A stretch of 64,000 nt of DNA from Pleurocapsa sp. PCC 7327. GTDB lineage: Bacteria; Cyanobacteriota; Cyanobacteriia; Cyanobacteriales; Microcystaceae. Positions within the stretch are counted from its first letter, which is position 1. Each line of letters opens with the position of its first letter. The notes under the pieces are model-generated. The model saw only the letters and a program-made list of their open reading frames with translations, was not told the DNA's origin and did not search any database. Made by a program: the position numbers and the translations under genes. The stretch lies in the NCBI RefSeq assembly GCF_000317025.1, contig NC_019689.1, positions 447,501 through 511,500 of the forward strand, written 5' to 3'. Below, one piece after another: positions 13,854-22,171 of the stretch.

Positions 13854-14375
13854 TTAAGCAACGCTAACCTTGACGACTTTGTGTTTTTCTGTCTCGGTTT
13901 TCGGCATAGTGAGACTCAAGACCCCGTTTTTGTATTCGGCTTGAACTTTGTCGGTTTGAATGTGGGCAGGTAATGGAATCGTTCGCTCGAACTTGCCATA
14001 GTAGAATTCAGAGCGAGTGACTCCTATTCCTTCAGTCTTAGTGGCAGACTTGCGCTCGCCGCTAATCGAAACCGAGTCAGCGGTCACTTCAATGTTGAGA
14101 TCTTTAGCTTCCAAACCTGGGACTTCGAGTTTGAGGTGAATCTCGCTGTCGGTTTCTTCCATTTCAGCAACAGGAACGCCAAAAGAAAGCGCTCTTCCGC
14201 CATCGGGCATCAATCTTTCAAACAAGCGATTCATGCGCTGTTGTATGCGTTCCATTTCCCGCCAGGGTTCCCAACGTTCGATTTCTCGGAAAGGTTCCCA
14301 ACGTTCGATTTCTCGGAAAGGTTCCCAACGTTCGATTTCTCGGAAAGGTTCCCAACGAAAACGAATAAGTGACAT
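13854..14375 (-). CDS. hspA: small heat shock protein Hsp20 with tandem N-terminal repeats
   Basis: A 173-residue small heat shock protein. Residues from about 60 to the end form the alpha-crystallin domain, with the A-x-Y-x-N-G-V-L signature in YKNGVLSLTMPKTE, and the protein ends in a short tail. The N-terminus repeats WEPFREIER three times, then WEPWREMER; usual cyanobacterial HspA has one such unit. The repeats come from a 27-bp DNA tandem repeat. GGAGG lies 7 bases before the ATG and can pair with an upstream CTCC. It heads a minus-strand hsp20-dnaK-ftsH group. The repeats may change oligomer assembly or client binding, which is inference. Confidence 0.95.
   Translation of the reverse strand: MSLIRFRWEPFREIERWEPFREIERWEPFREIERWEPWREMERIQQRMNRLFERLMPDGGRALSFGVPVAEMEETDSEIHLKLEVPGLEAKDLNIEVTADSVSISGERKSATKTEGIGVTRSEFYYGKFERTIPLPAHIQTDKVQAEYKNGVLSLTMPKTETEKHKVVKVSVA
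14266..14357 (-). repeat. 27-bp tandem repeat inside hsp20
   Basis: Three identical 27-bp units (14266-14292, 14293-14319, 14320-14346) and an 11-base fourth start (14347-14357). Because 27 is a multiple of three, each unit encodes nine residues of the Hsp20 N-terminus. Perfect identity points to a recent expansion or ongoing slippage. Confidence 0.97.
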
Positions 14376-14764: not shown

Positions 14765-15925
14765 TTATTGCCCTCTCCAACTGTAGGGGTAGTCTTTGTC
14801 CTCTAAGGCAGCCGCGTATTGCGTGAGCTTCAGCGGACGAAAGGTATCGATCATTACGGCGAGTTCGTCAGTCCGTTCCTTGCCGATAGAACCCTCGTAA
14901 GTTCCTGGGTGAGGACCGTGGGGAATGCCGCCGGGATGAATGGTAATTGATGCCCGCTCGATTCCTTTGCGCGACATGAAGTTCCCCTCAACGTAGTAAA
15001 GAACTTCATCCGAATCGACGTTGGAATGGTTGTATGGAGCCGGAATCGCCAAAGGGTGATAGTCGAACAGCCGAGGGACGAAAGAACACACAACAAAGCC
15101 AGGACCTTCAAAAGTTTGATGCACGGTCGGCGGTTGGTGAACCCGACCTGTAATTGGCTCAAAATCCTCGATATTGAAGGCATAGGGCCAAAGATGACCA
15201 TCCCAACCGACCACATCGAGGGGATGATAGCGATAAAAGTAGCGGGTAATGCGATCGCGAGCTTTGACTCGAATCTCGAACTCGCCTTCTTCGTCGTGGG
15301 CAATCAGTTCCTCTGGCGGGCGAATGTCGCGCTCGCAATAGGGAGAGTGTTCTAGAAATTGACCGTAACGATTGAGATAGCGGGCGGGCGGTTCGACGTG
15401 CCCATTGGCTTCGATAACCAGCATTCGCTGTTGGCTACCTTCATCGGGAAGGATGCGCCAAAGCACTCCGGTAGGAATCACTAAATAATCACCCGGTCGG
15501 TAGCGAAGAATTCCGAATTGACTCTCTAGTACGCCGCTGCCTTCGTGGATGAAAATGACCTCATCGCCGTGGGCAAAACGATACCAGTAGGACATCAGTT
15601 CCGTCGGTCGCGCCACTGAGATGCAGACGTTGTCATTAGCTGCGAGCGGAACTCTTGCCGCGATCGCATCGCCCCCAGTGGCTACAGTTGCCGCACGCAG
15701 ATGGCGGGGATGCAATGCTCCTGGTTCTTCATAGGGGATTTCTAGTACGCTATCGAGCAATAGTTTATCGAGCTGGGTAGGCGGGTGCAGGTGGTAGAGC
15801 AGAGATTGCACGCCCGAAAAGCCGCGAGTGCTAATCAACTCTTCGCGATACAAAGATCCGTCGGCTTGACGAAATTGCGTATGCCGCTTGTGGGGAATGC
15901 GTCCTAACTTGTAGTAGTAAGTCAT
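14765..15925 (-). CDS. hmgA: homogentisate 1,2-dioxygenase
   Basis: A 386-residue cupin-type iron dioxygenase that opens the homogentisate ring to maleylacetoacetate. Typical family blocks are visible: the N-terminal YYYKLGRIPHKRHTQFR, the GDYLVIPTGVLWR cupin strand, and the metal region with HSNVDSDEVLYYVEGNF (His, Glu) and GGIPHGPHPGTYEG (His). The length is slightly below that of animal enzymes. An open frame extends to 15961, but the ATG at 15925 fits the family start. It follows hpd on the same strand with an 84-base gap, so product and substrate steps are probably cotranscribed. Confidence 0.93.
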   Translation of the reverse strand: MTYYYKLGRIPHKRHTQFRQADGSLYREELISTRGFSGVQSLLYHLHPPTQLDKLLLDSVLEIPYEEPGALHPRHLRAATVATGGDAIAARVPLAANDNVCISVARPTELMSYWYRFAHGDEVIFIHEGSGVLESQFGILRYRPGDYLVIPTGVLWRILPDEGSQQRMLVIEANGHVEPPARYLNRYGQFLEHSPYCERDIRPPEELIAHDEEGEFEIRVKARDRITRYFYRYHPLDVVGWDGHLWPYAFNIEDFEPITGRVHQPPTVHQTFEGPGFVVCSFVPRLFDYHPLAIPAPYNHSNVDSDEVLYYVEGNFMSRKGIERASITIHPGGIPHGPHPGTYEGSIGKERTDELAVMIDTFRPLKLTQYAAALEDKDYPYSWRGQ

Positions 15926-16009
15926 GGTTTCATCCCTGTGCTTTGTCTGTTTCCTATCCATCTAAGGCAAAAAGGACAAGTGAGAAGTCAGTATTTTGCC
16001 TTTTTCCTT

Positions 16010-17104
16010 CTATAGATTGCCCCGCATCGCCTGTTCGCGCTCGATCGCCTCGAACAAAGCTTTAAAATTCCCCTCACCAAAGCCCTGCGCTCCGTGCCGT
16101 TCGATTATCTCGAAGAATAGCGTCGGTCGATCTTGCACGGGTTGGGTGAAAATCTGGAGTAAATACCCTTCTTCATCCCGATCTACCAGAATTCCCAATT
16201 CTGCTAGCTTATCGATCGGCTCGTCGATCTTGCCGACTCGTTTCTCCAAGTTCTCGTAATAGGTTTTCGGGGTGTCGAGAAACTCAACTCCTGCCGCCTT
16301 GAGCTGGGCGACTGTCGCGATAATATCGTCAGTAGCGAGAGCAACGTGTTGAATTCCCGGACCGCAATGGTATTCCAAATACTCTTGGATCTGGGATTTC
16401 CGTTTGCCCCCGGCAGGCTCGTTGATCGGCAATTTAATTTTGCCCGTATTGTCCTGCATTACTTTAGACATTAATGCCGAGTACTCTGTCGAGATCGTTT
16501 TCTCGTCAAAATGTACCAATAGGCTAAAGCCCATCGTGTCGGCAAAAAACTTTGCCCAGCGCTCCATGCCGCCGACTTCAACGTTTCCGACTACGTGGTC
16601 GATCGCTTTTAGTTTCGTCTCATAAGAGAGAGGGCGATCGCTGTAACGAGACTCGAAACCCGGTGCAAACGCCCCAGAATAATCGCTGCGATCGACGAAT
16701 TTGATTAATACGTCTCCGTAGGCGTGGATAGCGGCGTAGCGGAAGATCCCGCGCCCGTCTTCTTCTTCAGTCGGCGCGATCGCGGTTTCGGCTCCTCGCT
16801 CGACTGCCGCTTTGTAGGCATCGACAGCATCCGGAACTTCTATGGCAATGACGGCTACGCCATCTCCATGCTTGAGAACGCTTTTTGAGATTGGGTGGTC
16901 TGGATTCAGCCCCGTACTCAAAACAAAGCGGACATCTCCTTGCTCCATTACATAAGAAGCGGTTTCGCGGCTGCCAGTTTCCAGACCCCGGTATGCCGTA
17001 TTGGTGAATCCGAAACATTTTGAGTAATAGAACGCTGCCTGCTTGGCGTTGCCGACATAGAACTCAAGATGGTCGAATCCCTTAATAGGAAAAAAGTCGC
17101 TCAT
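16010..17104 (-). CDS. hpd: 4-hydroxyphenylpyruvate dioxygenase
   Basis: A 364-residue two-module vicinal-oxygen-chelate enzyme that converts 4-hydroxyphenylpyruvate to homogentisate. The iron ligands of the family are present: His170 (KAIDHVVGNV), His253 (GIQHVALATDDI) and Glu332 (LFFEIIERHG), and the C-terminal helix GFGEGNFKALFEAIEREQ is conserved. GGAGA precedes the ATG. Homogentisate can serve tocopherol synthesis, but here hpd is followed by hmgA, which commits it to breakdown. It diverges from an Lrp/AsnC-type regulator gene, its likely controller. Confidence 0.95.
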   Translation of the reverse strand: MSDFFPIKGFDHLEFYVGNAKQAAFYYSKCFGFTNTAYRGLETGSRETASYVMEQGDVRFVLSTGLNPDHPISKSVLKHGDGVAVIAIEVPDAVDAYKAAVERGAETAIAPTEEEDGRGIFRYAAIHAYGDVLIKFVDRSDYSGAFAPGFESRYSDRPLSYETKLKAIDHVVGNVEVGGMERWAKFFADTMGFSLLVHFDEKTISTEYSALMSKVMQDNTGKIKLPINEPAGGKRKSQIQEYLEYHCGPGIQHVALATDDIIATVAQLKAAGVEFLDTPKTYYENLEKRVGKIDEPIDKLAELGILVDRDEEGYLLQIFTQPVQDRPTLFFEIIERHGAQGFGEGNFKALFEAIEREQAMRGNL

Positions 17105-17399: not shown

Positions 17400-17954
17400 T
17401 TGCTAAAGAACAACACTAAGGTAAAGCCAGCGCCAAAAAACGCCGAACAACTTCAACAGTTGGATGAGATAGACCGACAGATCTTGCACCTGTTGCAAAA
17501 CAACAGCCGGATCCCTAGCGCTGAATTGGCTCGTCGGGTCAATCTCTCAGCGCCGGGACTGCAAAAAAGACTGAAGAAGCTTGAAGAAAGCGGCATCATT
17601 GAAGGTTACGTTACGTTGGTCAATCGCGAGGCGATAGGTTTAGACTTGTTATGTTTTGCACAGATAACGCTTGCCCACCATCAACCTGAATATGTCGGGC
17701 AATTTTGCGATCGCGTCAAGGAATTACCAGAAGTCCTAGAATGTCACCACCTTACTGGCGAATTTGATTATCTGCTGAAAGTAGTTGTCTCCAATCGCCA
17801 GCATCTAGAAAGGTTTTTGTTCGACAAAATTACTCGCATTCCAGGTGTGGATAAGATTCGTACTAGCATCGTTCTCAACGAAATCAAAGCATCTACTTCA
17901 TTGCCATTGTCTGAAGCTGCAATTGACAGCGTGAGTTTGAGCGAAAATGAATAA
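17400..17954 (+). CDS. Lrp/AsnC-family transcriptional regulator
   Basis: A 184-residue regulator. An N-terminal winged helix-turn-helix (about 25-75, with the recognition part NLSAPGLQKRLKKLEESGII) is followed by the RAM/AsnC effector domain (about 85-165). Members bind amino acids and act as octameric local regulators. The frame starts at TTG 17400 with GGAGAG just upstream; no in-frame ATG fits. Being divergent from hpd-hmgA and upstream of the genes leading to fahA, it probably senses tyrosine, phenylalanine or a pathway intermediate. That role is inferred from position. Confidence 0.88.
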   Translation: MLKNNTKVKPAPKNAEQLQQLDEIDRQILHLLQNNSRIPSAELARRVNLSAPGLQKRLKKLEESGIIEGYVTLVNREAIGLDLLCFAQITLAHHQPEYVGQFCDRVKELPEVLECHHLTGEFDYLLKVVVSNRQHLERFLFDKITRIPGVDKIRTSIVLNEIKASTSLPLSEAAIDSVSLSENE

Positions 17955-17984: not shown

Positions 17985-18539
17985 ATGTCTGGTTTAAAGG
18001 TTAAAGATCTCGAAAGATTGCAAGCTCAAAATCCCGAACTTCGGATGGAATTAGTGGGTGGGAAGATTATTGTTATGAGTCCGTCTGGATTGGAATCGGA
18101 CGAAGTTGCCGCAGCCATTGTTACTGAACTGAACAACTGGGTTAGACCTCGTAGGTTAGGGCGCGTCACAGCTTCGAGTGCCGGGTTTGTCTTGCCTAAT
18201 GAAGATGGGGATGTCCGTGCGCCAGATGCCTCATTTATTCGTGCCGAACGGTTAAAACGAACGACTGAAGATTATGCCCAACTCGTGCCCGATCTGATGT
18301 TCGAGGTCAAATCGAAAACAGATACGCTTCAAAAACTGCGCGACAAAATTCAGGAGTTTCTGAGATTGGGCACGCAAGTTGGGGTGTTGGTCGATCCGCG
18401 AACCCGCACCATGGAGGTGTATCGCCCTGGGATGGAAAATCCAGAGGTTTTAGGCAATGGAGATATATTGACGGTGCCGGAGTTGCTTCCTGGCTGGGAA
18501 CTGGCAGTTGCCAGTATTTGGGCACCGGAATTTGAGTAG
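17985..18539 (+). CDS. Uma2-family (DUF820) putative nuclease
   Basis: A 184-residue protein of the Uma2/DUF820 family, which is greatly expanded in cyanobacteria and has a restriction-endonuclease-like fold. The motif residues are visible: RMELVGGKI near the start, RAPDASFI (Asp of the active site), and LMFEVKSKTDTLQKLRDK (Glu-x-Lys), then VGVLVDPRTRTMEVYRPG. GGAG precedes the ATG. It lies 30 bases after the regulator and 13 bases before the unknown gene at 18553, so it seems to be part of this transcription unit although no link to tyrosine breakdown is known. Confidence 0.85.
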   Translation: MSGLKVKDLERLQAQNPELRMELVGGKIIVMSPSGLESDEVAAAIVTELNNWVRPRRLGRVTASSAGFVLPNEDGDVRAPDASFIRAERLKRTTEDYAQLVPDLMFEVKSKTDTLQKLRDKIQEFLRLGTQVGVLVDPRTRTMEVYRPGMENPEVLGNGDILTVPELLPGWELAVASIWAPEFE

Positions 18540-18552
18540 AAAGTGAGGCTTT

Positions 18553-19428
18553 ATGCTTGGATCGATAAAAACACTTCTCTCATCGATCGTGGACTATGCC
18601 GGACTTTTCCCGCCAGCCAAGTTTGACATGCGGGAGGCGATGGCGAATTACGATCGCGATCGGATGAGTTCCTATGATTGGATGCTGGGTCGTTTTGTCC
18701 TGCCAGCATCCCGACTGAACGAGTTTGAACAACTCTTGCCAGCATTTCCCCTAGAACAATGGTCGATCGCAGTTATTCTTTCGGGAAATCTGGAGTCAGA
18801 ACTTGAAAGGGTACAATCTATCTCTGACGGGGGCAAAATAAAGCTCGCTGCCCTAGAATTTCCGCCACTTCCCCCCGACGAAATCGAAAGCGTATTTCCC
18901 AATCTCTCGGCTGGCGTTGACGCATTCTTTGAAATACCTTTGGATGGAAACTTAGAAGCCTATCTAGCTGCCCTGCAATACGCCGATGCATTGGCTAAAA
19001 TCCGAACTGGAAGCACGACCGCCGATGCTTTTCCAACCGCATCCCAACTAAGTCATTACATCGTTTCGTTTGCCGAAGCTCAAGTTCCCTTTAAGGCAAC
19101 CGCCGGGCTGCATCACGCCTTACCAGGCGACTATCCCCTAACCTACGAGCCACAGAACAATTCTACCGCAATGCACGGTTTTCTTAACGTTGCGATCGCG
19201 GCAGCACTCACCTATTGGCAAAAAATCACGCGAGAAGAAGCGCTAGCAATTCTTCAGGAATCTTCCATCGAAGGTTTCCGATTCGCAGAAGACGGAATTA
19301 GCTGGGCATCCCATCATCTAAACCTTTCAGAAATAGAGGGAGCCAGACAACGTTTCTTTCGATCCTTTGGTTCCTGCTCCTTTCAAGAGCCAATAGACGA
19401 CCTCAAGACACTAAAACTGTTAAGCTAA
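18553..19428 (+). CDS. conserved unknown protein in the tyrosine-catabolic unit
   Basis: A 291-residue soluble protein with no signal peptide. I cannot name a family. Conserved-looking blocks are VDYAGLFPPAKFDMREA near the N-terminus, KIRTGSTTADAFPTASQL in the middle, and VPFKATAGLHHALPGDYPL, then MHGFLNV. The Lys/Arg-Gly and Lys-Ala-Thr-Ala-Gly-x-His-His patterns look like active-site loops of a barrel-type enzyme. It sits between the regulator/Uma2 genes and fahA, on the same strand, with AGTGAGG before the ATG. Because the window has no maleylacetoacetate isomerase, this is the best local candidate for a missing or accessory step; that is inference. Confidence 0.75.
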   Translation: MLGSIKTLLSSIVDYAGLFPPAKFDMREAMANYDRDRMSSYDWMLGRFVLPASRLNEFEQLLPAFPLEQWSIAVILSGNLESELERVQSISDGGKIKLAALEFPPLPPDEIESVFPNLSAGVDAFFEIPLDGNLEAYLAALQYADALAKIRTGSTTADAFPTASQLSHYIVSFAEAQVPFKATAGLHHALPGDYPLTYEPQNNSTAMHGFLNVAIAAALTYWQKITREEALAILQESSIEGFRFAEDGISWASHHLNLSEIEGARQRFFRSFGSCSFQEPIDDLKTLKLLS

Positions 19429-19649: not shown

Positions 19650-20969
19650 ATGATCCGTCCCATCGATGCCACACACGATCCGAATTTGCGCAGTTGGGTA
19701 GAATCGGCGAATCAAAAAGACACCGATTTTCCTATCCAAAACCTTCCTTTAGGAGTATTTCGCAGGCGGGATAGCATTGACTCCTCGCGTATTGGCGTTG
19801 CGATAGGCGATCGCATTCTCGATTTGTCTTTATGTGTCGAAGCCGGACTCCTAGAAGAACTTCCGGGGAAACTGCAAGAAGCTTGTGCGGCAACCAATCT
19901 CAATCCACTGATGGCGATGGGGAGCGAAGCTTCCTTGGCGCTGCGCCGTTGCTTGAGCGCACTGTTGCGATACGACAAACAAAAATCCCTTCCAGAACGA
20001 GAAATTCTCGTATCGATGTCCGATGCCGAACTTTTACTACCCGCCGAGATTGGCGATTATACGGACTTCTACGCCTCAATTTTTCATGCCACCAACGTTG
20101 GCAAGCTATTCCGCCCCGACAATCCCCTACTTCCCAACTACAAGTATGTCCCCATCGCCTACCACGGACGTGCTTCCTCTATCGTACCCAGCGGCACGTA
20201 TATTAATCGTCCCAAAGGTCAGCGAAAGCGTCCCGATGAGACAGCCCCCAGTTTCGGTTCTTCTCGACTTCTCGACTACGAAATGGAAGTCGGATTCTTT
20301 GTGGGAGCTGGAAATAAACTAGGTCAGCCCATCCCAATAGACAATGCTGAGGAACACATCTTTGGACTTTGCTTGGTTAACGATTGGTCGGCACGAGATA
20401 TCCAAGCCTGGGAATACCAACCCCTCGGTCCTTTTCTGTCCAAGAATTTTGCCACCACCATCTCGCCTTGGGTAGTGACTCTGGAAGCGCTTGTCCCTTT
20501 TCGCTGTTCGGCGTTTTCTCGTCCCCAAGGAGATCCCCCGCCGTTGCCCTATCTTTTTTCGCGGCAGGATGCTAGTCTGGGCGGGATCGACCTCACGGTA
20601 GAAGTATGGCTGCTTTCGGCTCAGATGCGCGAGGTGGGGATGGAGCCATTTTGTTTGAGTCGTGCTTCTTTTGCACAGATGTATTGGACATTGGCTCAGA
20701 TGCTTGCCCATCACTCAAGTAATGGTTGCAATCTCCGCACAGGAGATTTACTGGCTAGCGGCACAGTCTCAGGTGCCGAAGAAGGTTCGCAAGGATCTCT
20801 GCTCGAACTTACCCAGCGCGGCTCACAACCCATTCAACTGCCAACAGGTGAAAAGCGAGGTTTCTTATCTGATGGAGACGAAGTGATTTTGCGAGGATAC
20901 TGCGAAAAAGAAGGCTACGCCAGAGTAGGATTCGGAGAATGCCGAGGCACAGTTCTATCTGTAGAGTAG
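19650..20969 (+). CDS. fahA: fumarylacetoacetase
   Basis: A 439-residue enzyme that hydrolyses fumarylacetoacetate to fumarate and acetoacetate, the last step of tyrosine breakdown. The family signature is complete: DYTDFYASIFHATNVGKLFR (metal Asp and catalytic His), YHGRASSIVPSG, DYEMEVGFF (metal Glu pair) and LVNDWSARDIQAWEY (metal Asp). Length is close to that of other long FAH proteins (about 420). The ribosome-binding site is weak, and a repeat lies just upstream. It follows the unknown gene at 18553 by 221 bases on the same strand and converges with the aminotransferase gene. Confidence 0.95.
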   Translation: MIRPIDATHDPNLRSWVESANQKDTDFPIQNLPLGVFRRRDSIDSSRIGVAIGDRILDLSLCVEAGLLEELPGKLQEACAATNLNPLMAMGSEASLALRRCLSALLRYDKQKSLPEREILVSMSDAELLLPAEIGDYTDFYASIFHATNVGKLFRPDNPLLPNYKYVPIAYHGRASSIVPSGTYINRPKGQRKRPDETAPSFGSSRLLDYEMEVGFFVGAGNKLGQPIPIDNAEEHIFGLCLVNDWSARDIQAWEYQPLGPFLSKNFATTISPWVVTLEALVPFRCSAFSRPQGDPPPLPYLFSRQDASLGGIDLTVEVWLLSAQMREVGMEPFCLSRASFAQMYWTLAQMLAHHSSNGCNLRTGDLLASGTVSGAEEGSQGSLLELTQRGSQPIQLPTGEKRGFLSDGDEVILRGYCEKEGYARVGFGECRGTVLSVE

Positions 20970-21004: not shown

Positions 21005-22171
21005 TTATTTGAGCTTGCTAATGGCTGCTTGAATCCGCTCTAGTGCTTCTTGGATATTCTCTAAAGAATTGGCATAAGAAAGCCTCAAGTATCCATCGCC
21101 AAATTTTCCAAAAGCCGTACCGGACAATACCGCTACTCCCGCTTCTTCGAGTAGATAGTCGGCAAGTTCCCCGCAGGAAAGGGGCAACTGCTTCACATTG
21201 GGGAAGACATAAAAAGCGCCTGCGGGTTTAAGGCAACTAATTCCCTCAATGGTATTTAAACCTTCTACAATTGCATCCCGCCGCTGTTTGAATTGGGCAA
21301 CCATTTGGGTAACGAAATCTTGCGATCCTTTGAGCGCTTCAATTCCCGCTATTTGCGTAAACGAACAAGTACAGGAATTAGAATTAATCGTTAATCGTAC
21401 AATCTCCTCAACAAGCGGCTTGGGAGCGATAGCGTAGCCCAATCGCCATCCCGTCATTGCATAGGTTTTTGAATGACCGTCGAGCAAAATTGTTCGCTCT
21501 TTCATGCCAGGAAAACCAATAATACTTTCGTGTTGTCCTTCATAGAGAATGCGGGAATAGATTTCGTCGGAGAGGACGTAAAAATCGTATTTATTTGCCA
21601 GATTGGCAATTGCCTCTAAATCCTCTTTTTTGAGAAAACTGCCCGTCGGATTTTGGGGAGAATTAAGAATTAATAGGCGAGTGCGATCGGAAATTGCGGC
21701 AATTAAATCTTCAACGCGAAAGCGAAAATCAACTTCCTCTCGCAAGGGCAGCGGAACGGCTTTTGCGCCCACAAAGTTAATAACCGATTCATAAATAGGA
21801 AAACCCGGATTGGGATAAATTACCTCATCTCCTTTCTCAATCAGCGCTAGGATAGTAAAAAAAACAATCGGTTTGGCGCCGGGAGTCACGACAACTTCAT
21901 CGGGATGGATCGCAATACCTCTTGTTTGCGAAATATGTTCGGCTACGACTTCGCGAAATTCCCATAGTCCGGCAGCAGGGCTGTATTCGGTGTATCCATC
22001 TTTCATCGCCTGGAAAGCAGCTGCACAAATATTCATGGGGGTTTTAAAATCGGGCTGACCGATTTCGAGGTGAATAATCTTTCTGCCTTGCGCCTCTAAA
22101 TTTTTTGCTCTGGCAAAGACCTCGAAAGCTGATTCAGTTCCTAAACGACTCATTCGCTTGGCAAATTTCAT
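21005..22171 (-). CDS. class I PLP-dependent aminotransferase
   Basis: A 388-residue fold-type I aminotransferase. It shows the substrate/PLP motifs LEIGQPDFKTP, NSPQNPTG, DEIYSRILYEG and the Schiff-base lysine in SKTYAMTGWRLGY. Aspartate, aromatic and other specificities share this core, so the substrate is not fixed by sequence. Its position next to fahA in a tyrosine locus makes an aromatic (tyrosine to 4-hydroxyphenylpyruvate) role plausible. AAGGA precedes the ATG. Confidence 0.88.
   Translation of the reverse strand: MKFAKRMSRLGTESAFEVFARAKNLEAQGRKIIHLEIGQPDFKTPMNICAAAFQAMKDGYTEYSPAAGLWEFREVVAEHISQTRGIAIHPDEVVVTPGAKPIVFFTILALIEKGDEVIYPNPGFPIYESVINFVGAKAVPLPLREEVDFRFRVEDLIAAISDRTRLLILNSPQNPTGSFLKKEDLEAIANLANKYDFYVLSDEIYSRILYEGQHESIIGFPGMKERTILLDGHSKTYAMTGWRLGYAIAPKPLVEEIVRLTINSNSCTCSFTQIAGIEALKGSQDFVTQMVAQFKQRRDAIVEGLNTIEGISCLKPAGAFYVFPNVKQLPLSCGELADYLLEEAGVAVLSGTAFGKFGDGYLRLSYANSLENIQEALERIQAAISKLK

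Follow-up and report, generated by a model that had tools for sequence, protein, structure and literature searches.

The probable homogentisate locus and its orphan gene

The stretch of DNA analysed here comprises 64,000 nucleotides of the cyanobacterium Pleurocapsa sp. PCC 7327 (contig NC_019689.1, positions 447,501 to 511,500; hereafter the window) and harbors a group of genes probably for tyrosine degradation through homogentisate, together with an orphan gene that is a candidate for maleylacetoacetate isomerase (Table 1). The tyrosine pathway is textbook metabolism, and to our knowledge its isomerase is known only as a glutathione-dependent glutathione S-transferase (GST). A preliminary description of the orphan gene had proposed it for the missing isomerase or for an accessory step, and the isomerase candidacy is supported by its near one-to-one occurrence with fah, the fumarylacetoacetase gene, while maiA, which encodes the GST-type isomerase, is mostly absent. 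The gene was also said to lie on the same strand as fah, between fah and the regulator, which is correct, although an open reading frame (ORF) for a Uma2-family protein that had gone unmentioned also stands between the regulator and the candidate.

Table 1. Genes and motifs at the probable homogentisate locus, in window coordinates
Feature	Position	Strand	Remarks
Candidate maleylacetoacetate isomerase, orphan family, 291 amino acids	18553..19428	+	ATG start
KIRTGS motif, K149-S154	18997..19014	+	K149 and R151 invariant in 45 distinct sequences
FKATAGLHH motif, F180-H188	19090..19116	+	K181 and T183-H187 invariant
GSCS motif, G273-S276	19369..19380	+	G273, C275 and S276 invariant; C275 is the candidate nucleophilic cysteine
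fah, fumarylacetoacetase	19650..20969	+	TIGR01266 560.7 bits, cut-off 375.3
Lrp/AsnC-family regulator	17400..17954	+	TTG start
Uma2-family putative endonuclease ORF	17985..18539	+	Between regulator and candidate gene
hppd, 4-hydroxyphenylpyruvate dioxygenase	16010..17104	-	TIGR01263 453.2 bits, cut-off 277
Divergent homogentisate 1,2-dioxygenase homologue (hmgA)	14765..15961	-	PF20510 30.1 bits, gathering 20.2
Class I/II aminotransferase, possible tyrosine transaminase	21005..22171	-	Putative function; homologues in L002, L011, L022 and L116

The curated NCBIfam cut-offs are passed by hppd and fah. The hmgA homologue passes one of two Pfam cut-offs and no NCBIfam cut-off, as it scores 20.7 bits against a gathering threshold of 21 for PF04209 and 54.9 bits against a cut-off of 510.75 for TIGR01015.

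For the candidate protein itself, neither Pfam nor NCBIfam offers a model that matches at E≤10, and among PDB sequences nothing was found at this threshold either for the window protein or for a profile of 19 family members. When these 19 members were scanned singly, they gave scattered weak matches to eight Pfam families (one or two members each, best E 0.04) and to four NCBIfam families (one member each, best E 0.073). At E≤10, the window protein has no match to TIGR01262, which describes zeta-class GSTs and MaiA (cut-off 171.05 bits), to GST domains, or to the Pfam domain of the mycothiol-dependent, DinB-like maleylpyruvate isomerase; the DinB-like family is likewise absent from the eight Pfam families matched at E≤1 by the 19 members. 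The source genome contains a single match to the candidate at E≤0.001, and a scan of viral contigs with the family profile found no relative. The earlier remark that no characterised family came to mind therefore agrees with these searches, and no known unrelated function emerged from the family, PDB or literature searches. Among the open-licence papers listed, neither a glutathione-independent maleylacetoacetate isomerase nor the candidate protein was found, although an earlier description elsewhere is possible.

Association with fumarylacetoacetase in cyanobacteria

A scan of genome contigs revealed five cyanobacterial relatives with 57-92% identity; hmgA, hppd and an Lrp-type gene are present at all five of these loci, and fah at four. 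In a first phylum-wide draw of 292 genomes the family was found in four; three of these are identical with the only three that passed the fah cut-off in a draw of the same size, and the fourth is G016, considered below. The class-wide survey covered 388 Cyanobacteriia genomes, scanned with the 19-sequence family profile and, for fah, at E≤1e-40; the family, fah and maiA scans are assumed to share the same draw, as genome handles and sizes agree. Here the neighbourhood survey suggested in the preliminary description came out in favour of the candidate: the family occurs in 32 genomes and fah in 31, both being present in 30, the family only in two, fah only in one and neither in 355 (Fisher p about 3e-41, uncorrected for shared ancestry). 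The candidate thus accompanies fumarylacetoacetase in 30 of the 31 fah-positive cyanobacterial genomes, and the 30 double-positive genomes are spread over seven families.

Judging by coordinates, the candidate adjoins fah in 26 of these 30 genomes. In the other four (G309, G316, G325 and G427) the candidate is still found beside hppd, with fah located at another site, so that the association between candidate and fah is not merely that of one inherited gene block. The assembly of G421, the only genome with fah alone, consists of about 1200 contigs, and its fah is truncated on the upstream side, where the contig ends, so that the candidate gene may just be unassembled. G446 has only a degenerate unlinked paralogue, and G542 has a degenerate paralogue plus a cluster in which hmgA, candidate and fah are all truncated together. 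At that site (L108), only fragments of the three genes remain, which gives the impression of a cluster decaying as a whole.

It had been anticipated that frequent occurrence far from homogentisate genes would speak against the proposed role. In the class survey, each of the 28 loci L068-L095 has hppd and/or fah at a distance of at most 1.5 kb, whereas the degenerate paralogue L096 has neither that close, and the unlinked copies are four degenerate paralogues; the exception is the intact, unlinked copy of G016. Pairwise identities of the candidate across 16 taxa correlate with those of fah (r 0.93) and hmgA (r 0.92), a correlation that would partly be expected from common descent alone.

Plasmid-borne relatives in other phyla

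The family extends beyond cyanobacteria. A tblastn search of 72,556 plasmid records with the window protein found it on 24, at 25-57% identity, the relatives from Actinomycetota and Priestia being at 25-33%. These records belong to Streptomyces (11), Priestia (6), Pseudonocardia (2), Rhodococcus (2), Kovacikia (1), Nonomuraea (1) and Tsukamurella (1). As fah is found on 119 plasmid records in total, the comparison uses the best 60 of 119 in each search: all 24 family-bearing records are also among the fah records listed, and, of the 25 listed fah records that come from Gram-positive bacteria or cyanobacteria, 24 carry the candidate.

At all 11 candidate-bearing plasmid loci that were opened, the candidate stands beside fah. 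In the nine annotated Gram-positive loci it directly precedes fahA and is annotated as a "hypothetical protein", with a 4-base overlap between the two genes in five of them and gaps of 21-98 bases in four. The one Priestia locus displayed completely has the order hppD-candidate-fahA; Pseudonocardia, Tsukamurella, Rhodococcus and one Streptomyces type have hmgA-candidate-fahA, while the other Streptomyces type has candidate-fahA alone. In the unannotated Nonomuraea and Kovacikia records, similarity places fah next to the candidate, with hmgA nearby.

Among the plasmids, 23 records carry the HmgA variant (identity of at least 44%), 16 with the candidate and seven without it (six of them Rhodococcus). 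The candidate therefore follows fah, with its 24 of 25 listed records, more closely than it follows HmgA. The six Rhodococcus records (H219, H228-H232) carry an HmgA-like cupin, and neither fah nor the candidate is among their matches listed, which hints at another substrate for this cupin. The HmgA proteins of the window and of the Priestia and Streptomyces clusters (L014, L016) reach just 55-60 bits against the TIGR01015 cut-off of 510.75; judging from such scores, the HmgA of these clusters is a separate subfamily that this model overlooks.

Distribution of maiA

In the class survey, matches to TIGR01262 over the cut-off are found in three of the 388 genomes (G316, G486 and G501), of which G316 alone is fah-positive. 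Hence maiA passes the cut-off in one of the 31 fah-positive genomes, and it does not track fah (p 0.22). The maiA-like GST gene of G316 follows a gene for a 233-residue fumarylacetoacetate (FAA) hydrolase family protein on a contig other than that of the cluster (L114, 7096-8447) and, as it adjoins such a short FAA-hydrolase gene, it may belong to a gentisate-type pair. Nine family-carrying genomes were tested separately, and a maiA-like GST over the cut-off was found only in G294 (Nostocales HT-58-2), where it has other genes around it and lies some 0.4 Mb away from the cluster. The expectation that the candidate would not occur alongside maiA holds for the most part, G294 being, together with G316, where it fails.

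No maiA match was obtained in any of the ten Gram-positive plasmid records searched, whereas the Sphingobium record matched. The latter, the one proteobacterial cluster opened, reads AsnC regulator-phhA-hppd-hmgA-fahA-maiA, with maiA scoring 249.4 bits, and fahA-maiA adjacency also underlies several plasmid matches among those listed. The maiA matches listed on plasmids are the best 60 of 231. In cyanobacteria, fah is accompanied by the candidate and not by maiA proper.

Conserved residues and predicted fold

The residue alignment comprises 47 sequences, 45 of them distinct, with the degenerate paralogue L096 left out. Twenty positions are invariant: D14, A16, P20, P21, E102, E127, K149, R151, P161, K181, T183, A184, G185, L186, H187, G209, G273, C275, S276 and P280. 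Among them are residues typical of enzymes, namely two Lys, an Arg, a His, a Cys, an Asp and two Glu. The two motifs singled out in the preliminary description, KIRTGS and FKATAGLHH, are both present and both contain residues invariant in the 45 distinct relatives, although the last Ser of KIRTGS is atypical, as Gly occupies this position in 46 of 48 sequences (the L096 paralogue among the 48).

In each of four paralogues unlinked to homogentisate genes, P20 is lost, as are one or more of K149, R151, H187 and C275: K149 is changed to Asn in two, R151 is changed in two, H187 in two and C275 in three. These paralogues (L107, L109, L111 and L112; cyanobacterial family f26) are full-length open frames of 318-333 residues.

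Structure prediction and fold search, also suggested earlier, gave models like a triosephosphate isomerase (TIM) barrel, at low confidence, and picked out no single family. Two AlphaFold2 models were built from shallow six-sequence alignments. Both show alternating strands and helices and resemble many TIM barrels, with Z up to 10.3 and 10.2 and no family prominent; the best structural match, 2a4a (Z 10.3, root-mean-square deviation 3.6 over 188 residues), shares its rank with other barrel families. With the first model as query, Foldseek returned nothing at E≤0.001, its best hit (5.9e-3) being IMP dehydrogenase, a generic barrel. The models place K149, K181, E102 and E127 within predicted strands or at strand ends. 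The fold of the candidate is probably a TIM barrel, in which the two lysine motifs belong to predicted strands or follow them immediately.

A relationship to DeoC was considered with a profile of eight DeoC sequences, kept by a motif filter out of 14 (15 loci fetched); the hhalign result (E 0.053, probability 1%) is not significant. In this non-significant alignment K149 coincides with the lysine of the DeoC motif KTSTG and K181 with that of KASGG, and these two are the catalytic pair of DeoC, the Schiff-base lysine and the second lysine.

Proposed function and mechanism

The association with fah, the near-exclusivity with maiA and the conservation of residues strongly indicate an isomerase function. 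The model favoured here, to which we assign a probability of roughly 0.7, proposes that the candidate isomerises maleylacetoacetate independently of glutathione and has no sequence relationship with the zeta-class GST MaiA. The candidate would convert the cis product of homogentisate ring cleavage into fumarylacetoacetate, the substrate of Fah, in lineages that mostly lack maiA. Two chemistries are conceivable, separately or together. In one, the thiol of C275 would take the role that glutathione has in MaiA, through reversible addition to the cis double bond; in the other, an imine formed by K149, with K181, and a substrate ketone would loosen this bond. R151, K181 and H187 would hold the substrate carboxylates. 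Either chemical detail, the C275 adduct or the K149 imine, is put forward with far less confidence than the isomerase function itself. The more comprehensive proposal, which we regard as slightly better than an even chance, is that an unnamed family, probably of TIM-barrel fold, isomerises maleylacetoacetate by means of Cys275 and/or Lys149 without a low-molecular-weight thiol, and that it constitutes a widespread maiA-free solution in Actinomycetota, Bacillota and Cyanobacteriota.

Several observations weigh against the assignment as an isomerase. As the upstream HmgA is divergent, the identity of the ring-cleavage product is itself presumed. Cyanobacteria make glutathione, and uncatalysed or glutathione-aided isomerisation is conceivable in them. 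G294 and G316 have the candidate plus a maiA-like GST over the cut-off, and in all nine genomes tested separately the maiA model gives sub-cut-off matches to GSTs, down to E 1e-26, one of which could perform the isomerisation in these cyanobacteria. The maiA test in Gram-positive bacteria covered plasmid records only, and the Nonomuraea record was excluded for its size. The plasmid records also include a 2.66-Mb one from Nocardia farcinica (LN868939), where hmgA and fah are adjacent and the candidate is not there, and eight from Streptomyces that carry candidate and fah with no match to the window hmgA at E≤1e-5. The candidate evolves faster than its partners, its median identity being 0.33 vs 0.52 for fah and 0.54 for hmgA. 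In G016, an intact distant copy (28% identity; L010, 8647-10131) lies beside a different FAA-hydrolase gene, which is directly upstream and encodes 338 residues with a different N-terminal domain (PF18288); this 11-kb contig has no match to the window hmgA, hppd or fah, and the copy perhaps performs the same step in another pathway or stems from a contaminant contig. Finally, both structural models are weak (mean pLDDT, the predicted local distance difference test score, 61.6 and 58.1), and C275 falls in a region with pLDDT under 50.

Alternative explanations

It could be argued that the protein is itself non-catalytic and serves Fah or the divergent HmgA as accessory subunit, chaperone or scaffold, which would agree with its tight linkage to and co-inheritance with both fah and hmgA. 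This role is decidedly improbable, as the invariant residues are enzyme-like and proteobacterial Fah is established to work without the candidate. A partner of HmgA would moreover be hard to reconcile with the closer tracking of fah in the plasmid records and with the eight Streptomyces records just mentioned. An enzyme for another step of the pathway is somewhat less improbable, if still unlikely: a tautomerase, hydratase or retro-aldol enzyme could act on maleylacetoacetate, fumarylacetoacetate or a side product, the isomerisation being spontaneous, thiol-aided or performed by another GST. The predicted barrel is about equally like aldolases, epimerases and other barrel enzymes, the cyanobacteria tested have the sub-cut-off maiA-like GSTs, and free thiols slowly isomerise maleylacetoacetate. 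Nevertheless, the candidate is a neighbour of fah, a position that maiA can also occupy, and candidate and maiA largely exclude each other. The downstream acetoacetate steps are already covered by CoA transferase genes at three of the loci opened, of which the two from Rhodococcus also have a thiolase gene.

In Gram-positive bacteria, the isomerisation might instead be carried out by a homologue of the mycothiol-dependent, DinB-like maleylpyruvate isomerase or by an enoyl-CoA hydratase-like protein, the candidate being something else. A gene annotated with a maleylpyruvate isomerase N-terminal domain does lie upstream of the candidate, at about 3.3 kb (L017) and about 4 kb (L067), but this holds for two of the nine annotated Gram-positive loci, both from Streptomyces of one type. 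Priestia and cyanobacteria are not known to make mycothiol, and the candidate family is the element common to all three groups. For the enoyl-CoA hydratase-like protein, a Rhodococcus table labels an enoyl-CoA hydratase-isomerase beside hmgA and fahA as "mai" (PMC4591350), whereas a crotonase-family gene is found in a single Rhodococcus locus of the nine, on the opposite strand. This explanation appears the least probable of all.

Relation to known isomerases

As a maleylacetoacetate isomerase, the candidate would share with MaiA (TIGR01262, EC 5.2.1.2) its proposed place in the pathway and the position next to fahA. It differs from MaiA in having no sequence match to it, in its predicted alternating beta/alpha barrel (low confidence) instead of the GST fold, and in its Gram-positive hosts, which are not expected to have glutathione. 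A parallel is NCgl2918 of Corynebacterium glutamicum, reportedly a mycothiol-dependent maleylpyruvate isomerase of the DinB-like family, which likewise provides a non-GST cis-trans isomerisation of a maleyl keto acid; it acts in the gentisate pathway, belongs to another family and needs mycothiol. With DeoC-type class I aldolases and other TIM barrels the candidate shares the barrel-like models, but DeoC has no significant sequence relation to it and another gene context.

The thiol of actinomycetes is mycothiol and that of Firmicutes bacillithiol (PMC4360819). Actinomycetes and bacilli carry homogentisate genes yet use other thiols, and an assayable candidate would fill this gap. In passages describing actinobacterial clusters (PMC2694998, PMC4591350, PMC11012174), the step is either assigned to a different protein or left without one. 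If the assignment is right, the family would represent a third independent route of maleyl keto acid isomerisation, besides the zeta-class GST and the mycothiol-dependent enzyme, and the annotation "hypothetical protein" would be corrected in three phyla.

Other features of the locus

With regard to the Uma2-family ORF, only its last 24 residues are matched in Hydrococcus (L002), as a C-terminal remnant, and it has no tblastn match in L003-L006. Given this remnant or absence in relatives, the ORF seems to be a recent arrival that splits the pair formed by the lrp-type and candidate genes. On the other side of hmgA, an Hsp20 ORF (13854-14375, minus strand; Pfam HSP20) contains a 27-bp unit repeated 4.1 times at 14248-14357, and this in-frame repeat extends the N-terminal part of the small heat-shock protein.
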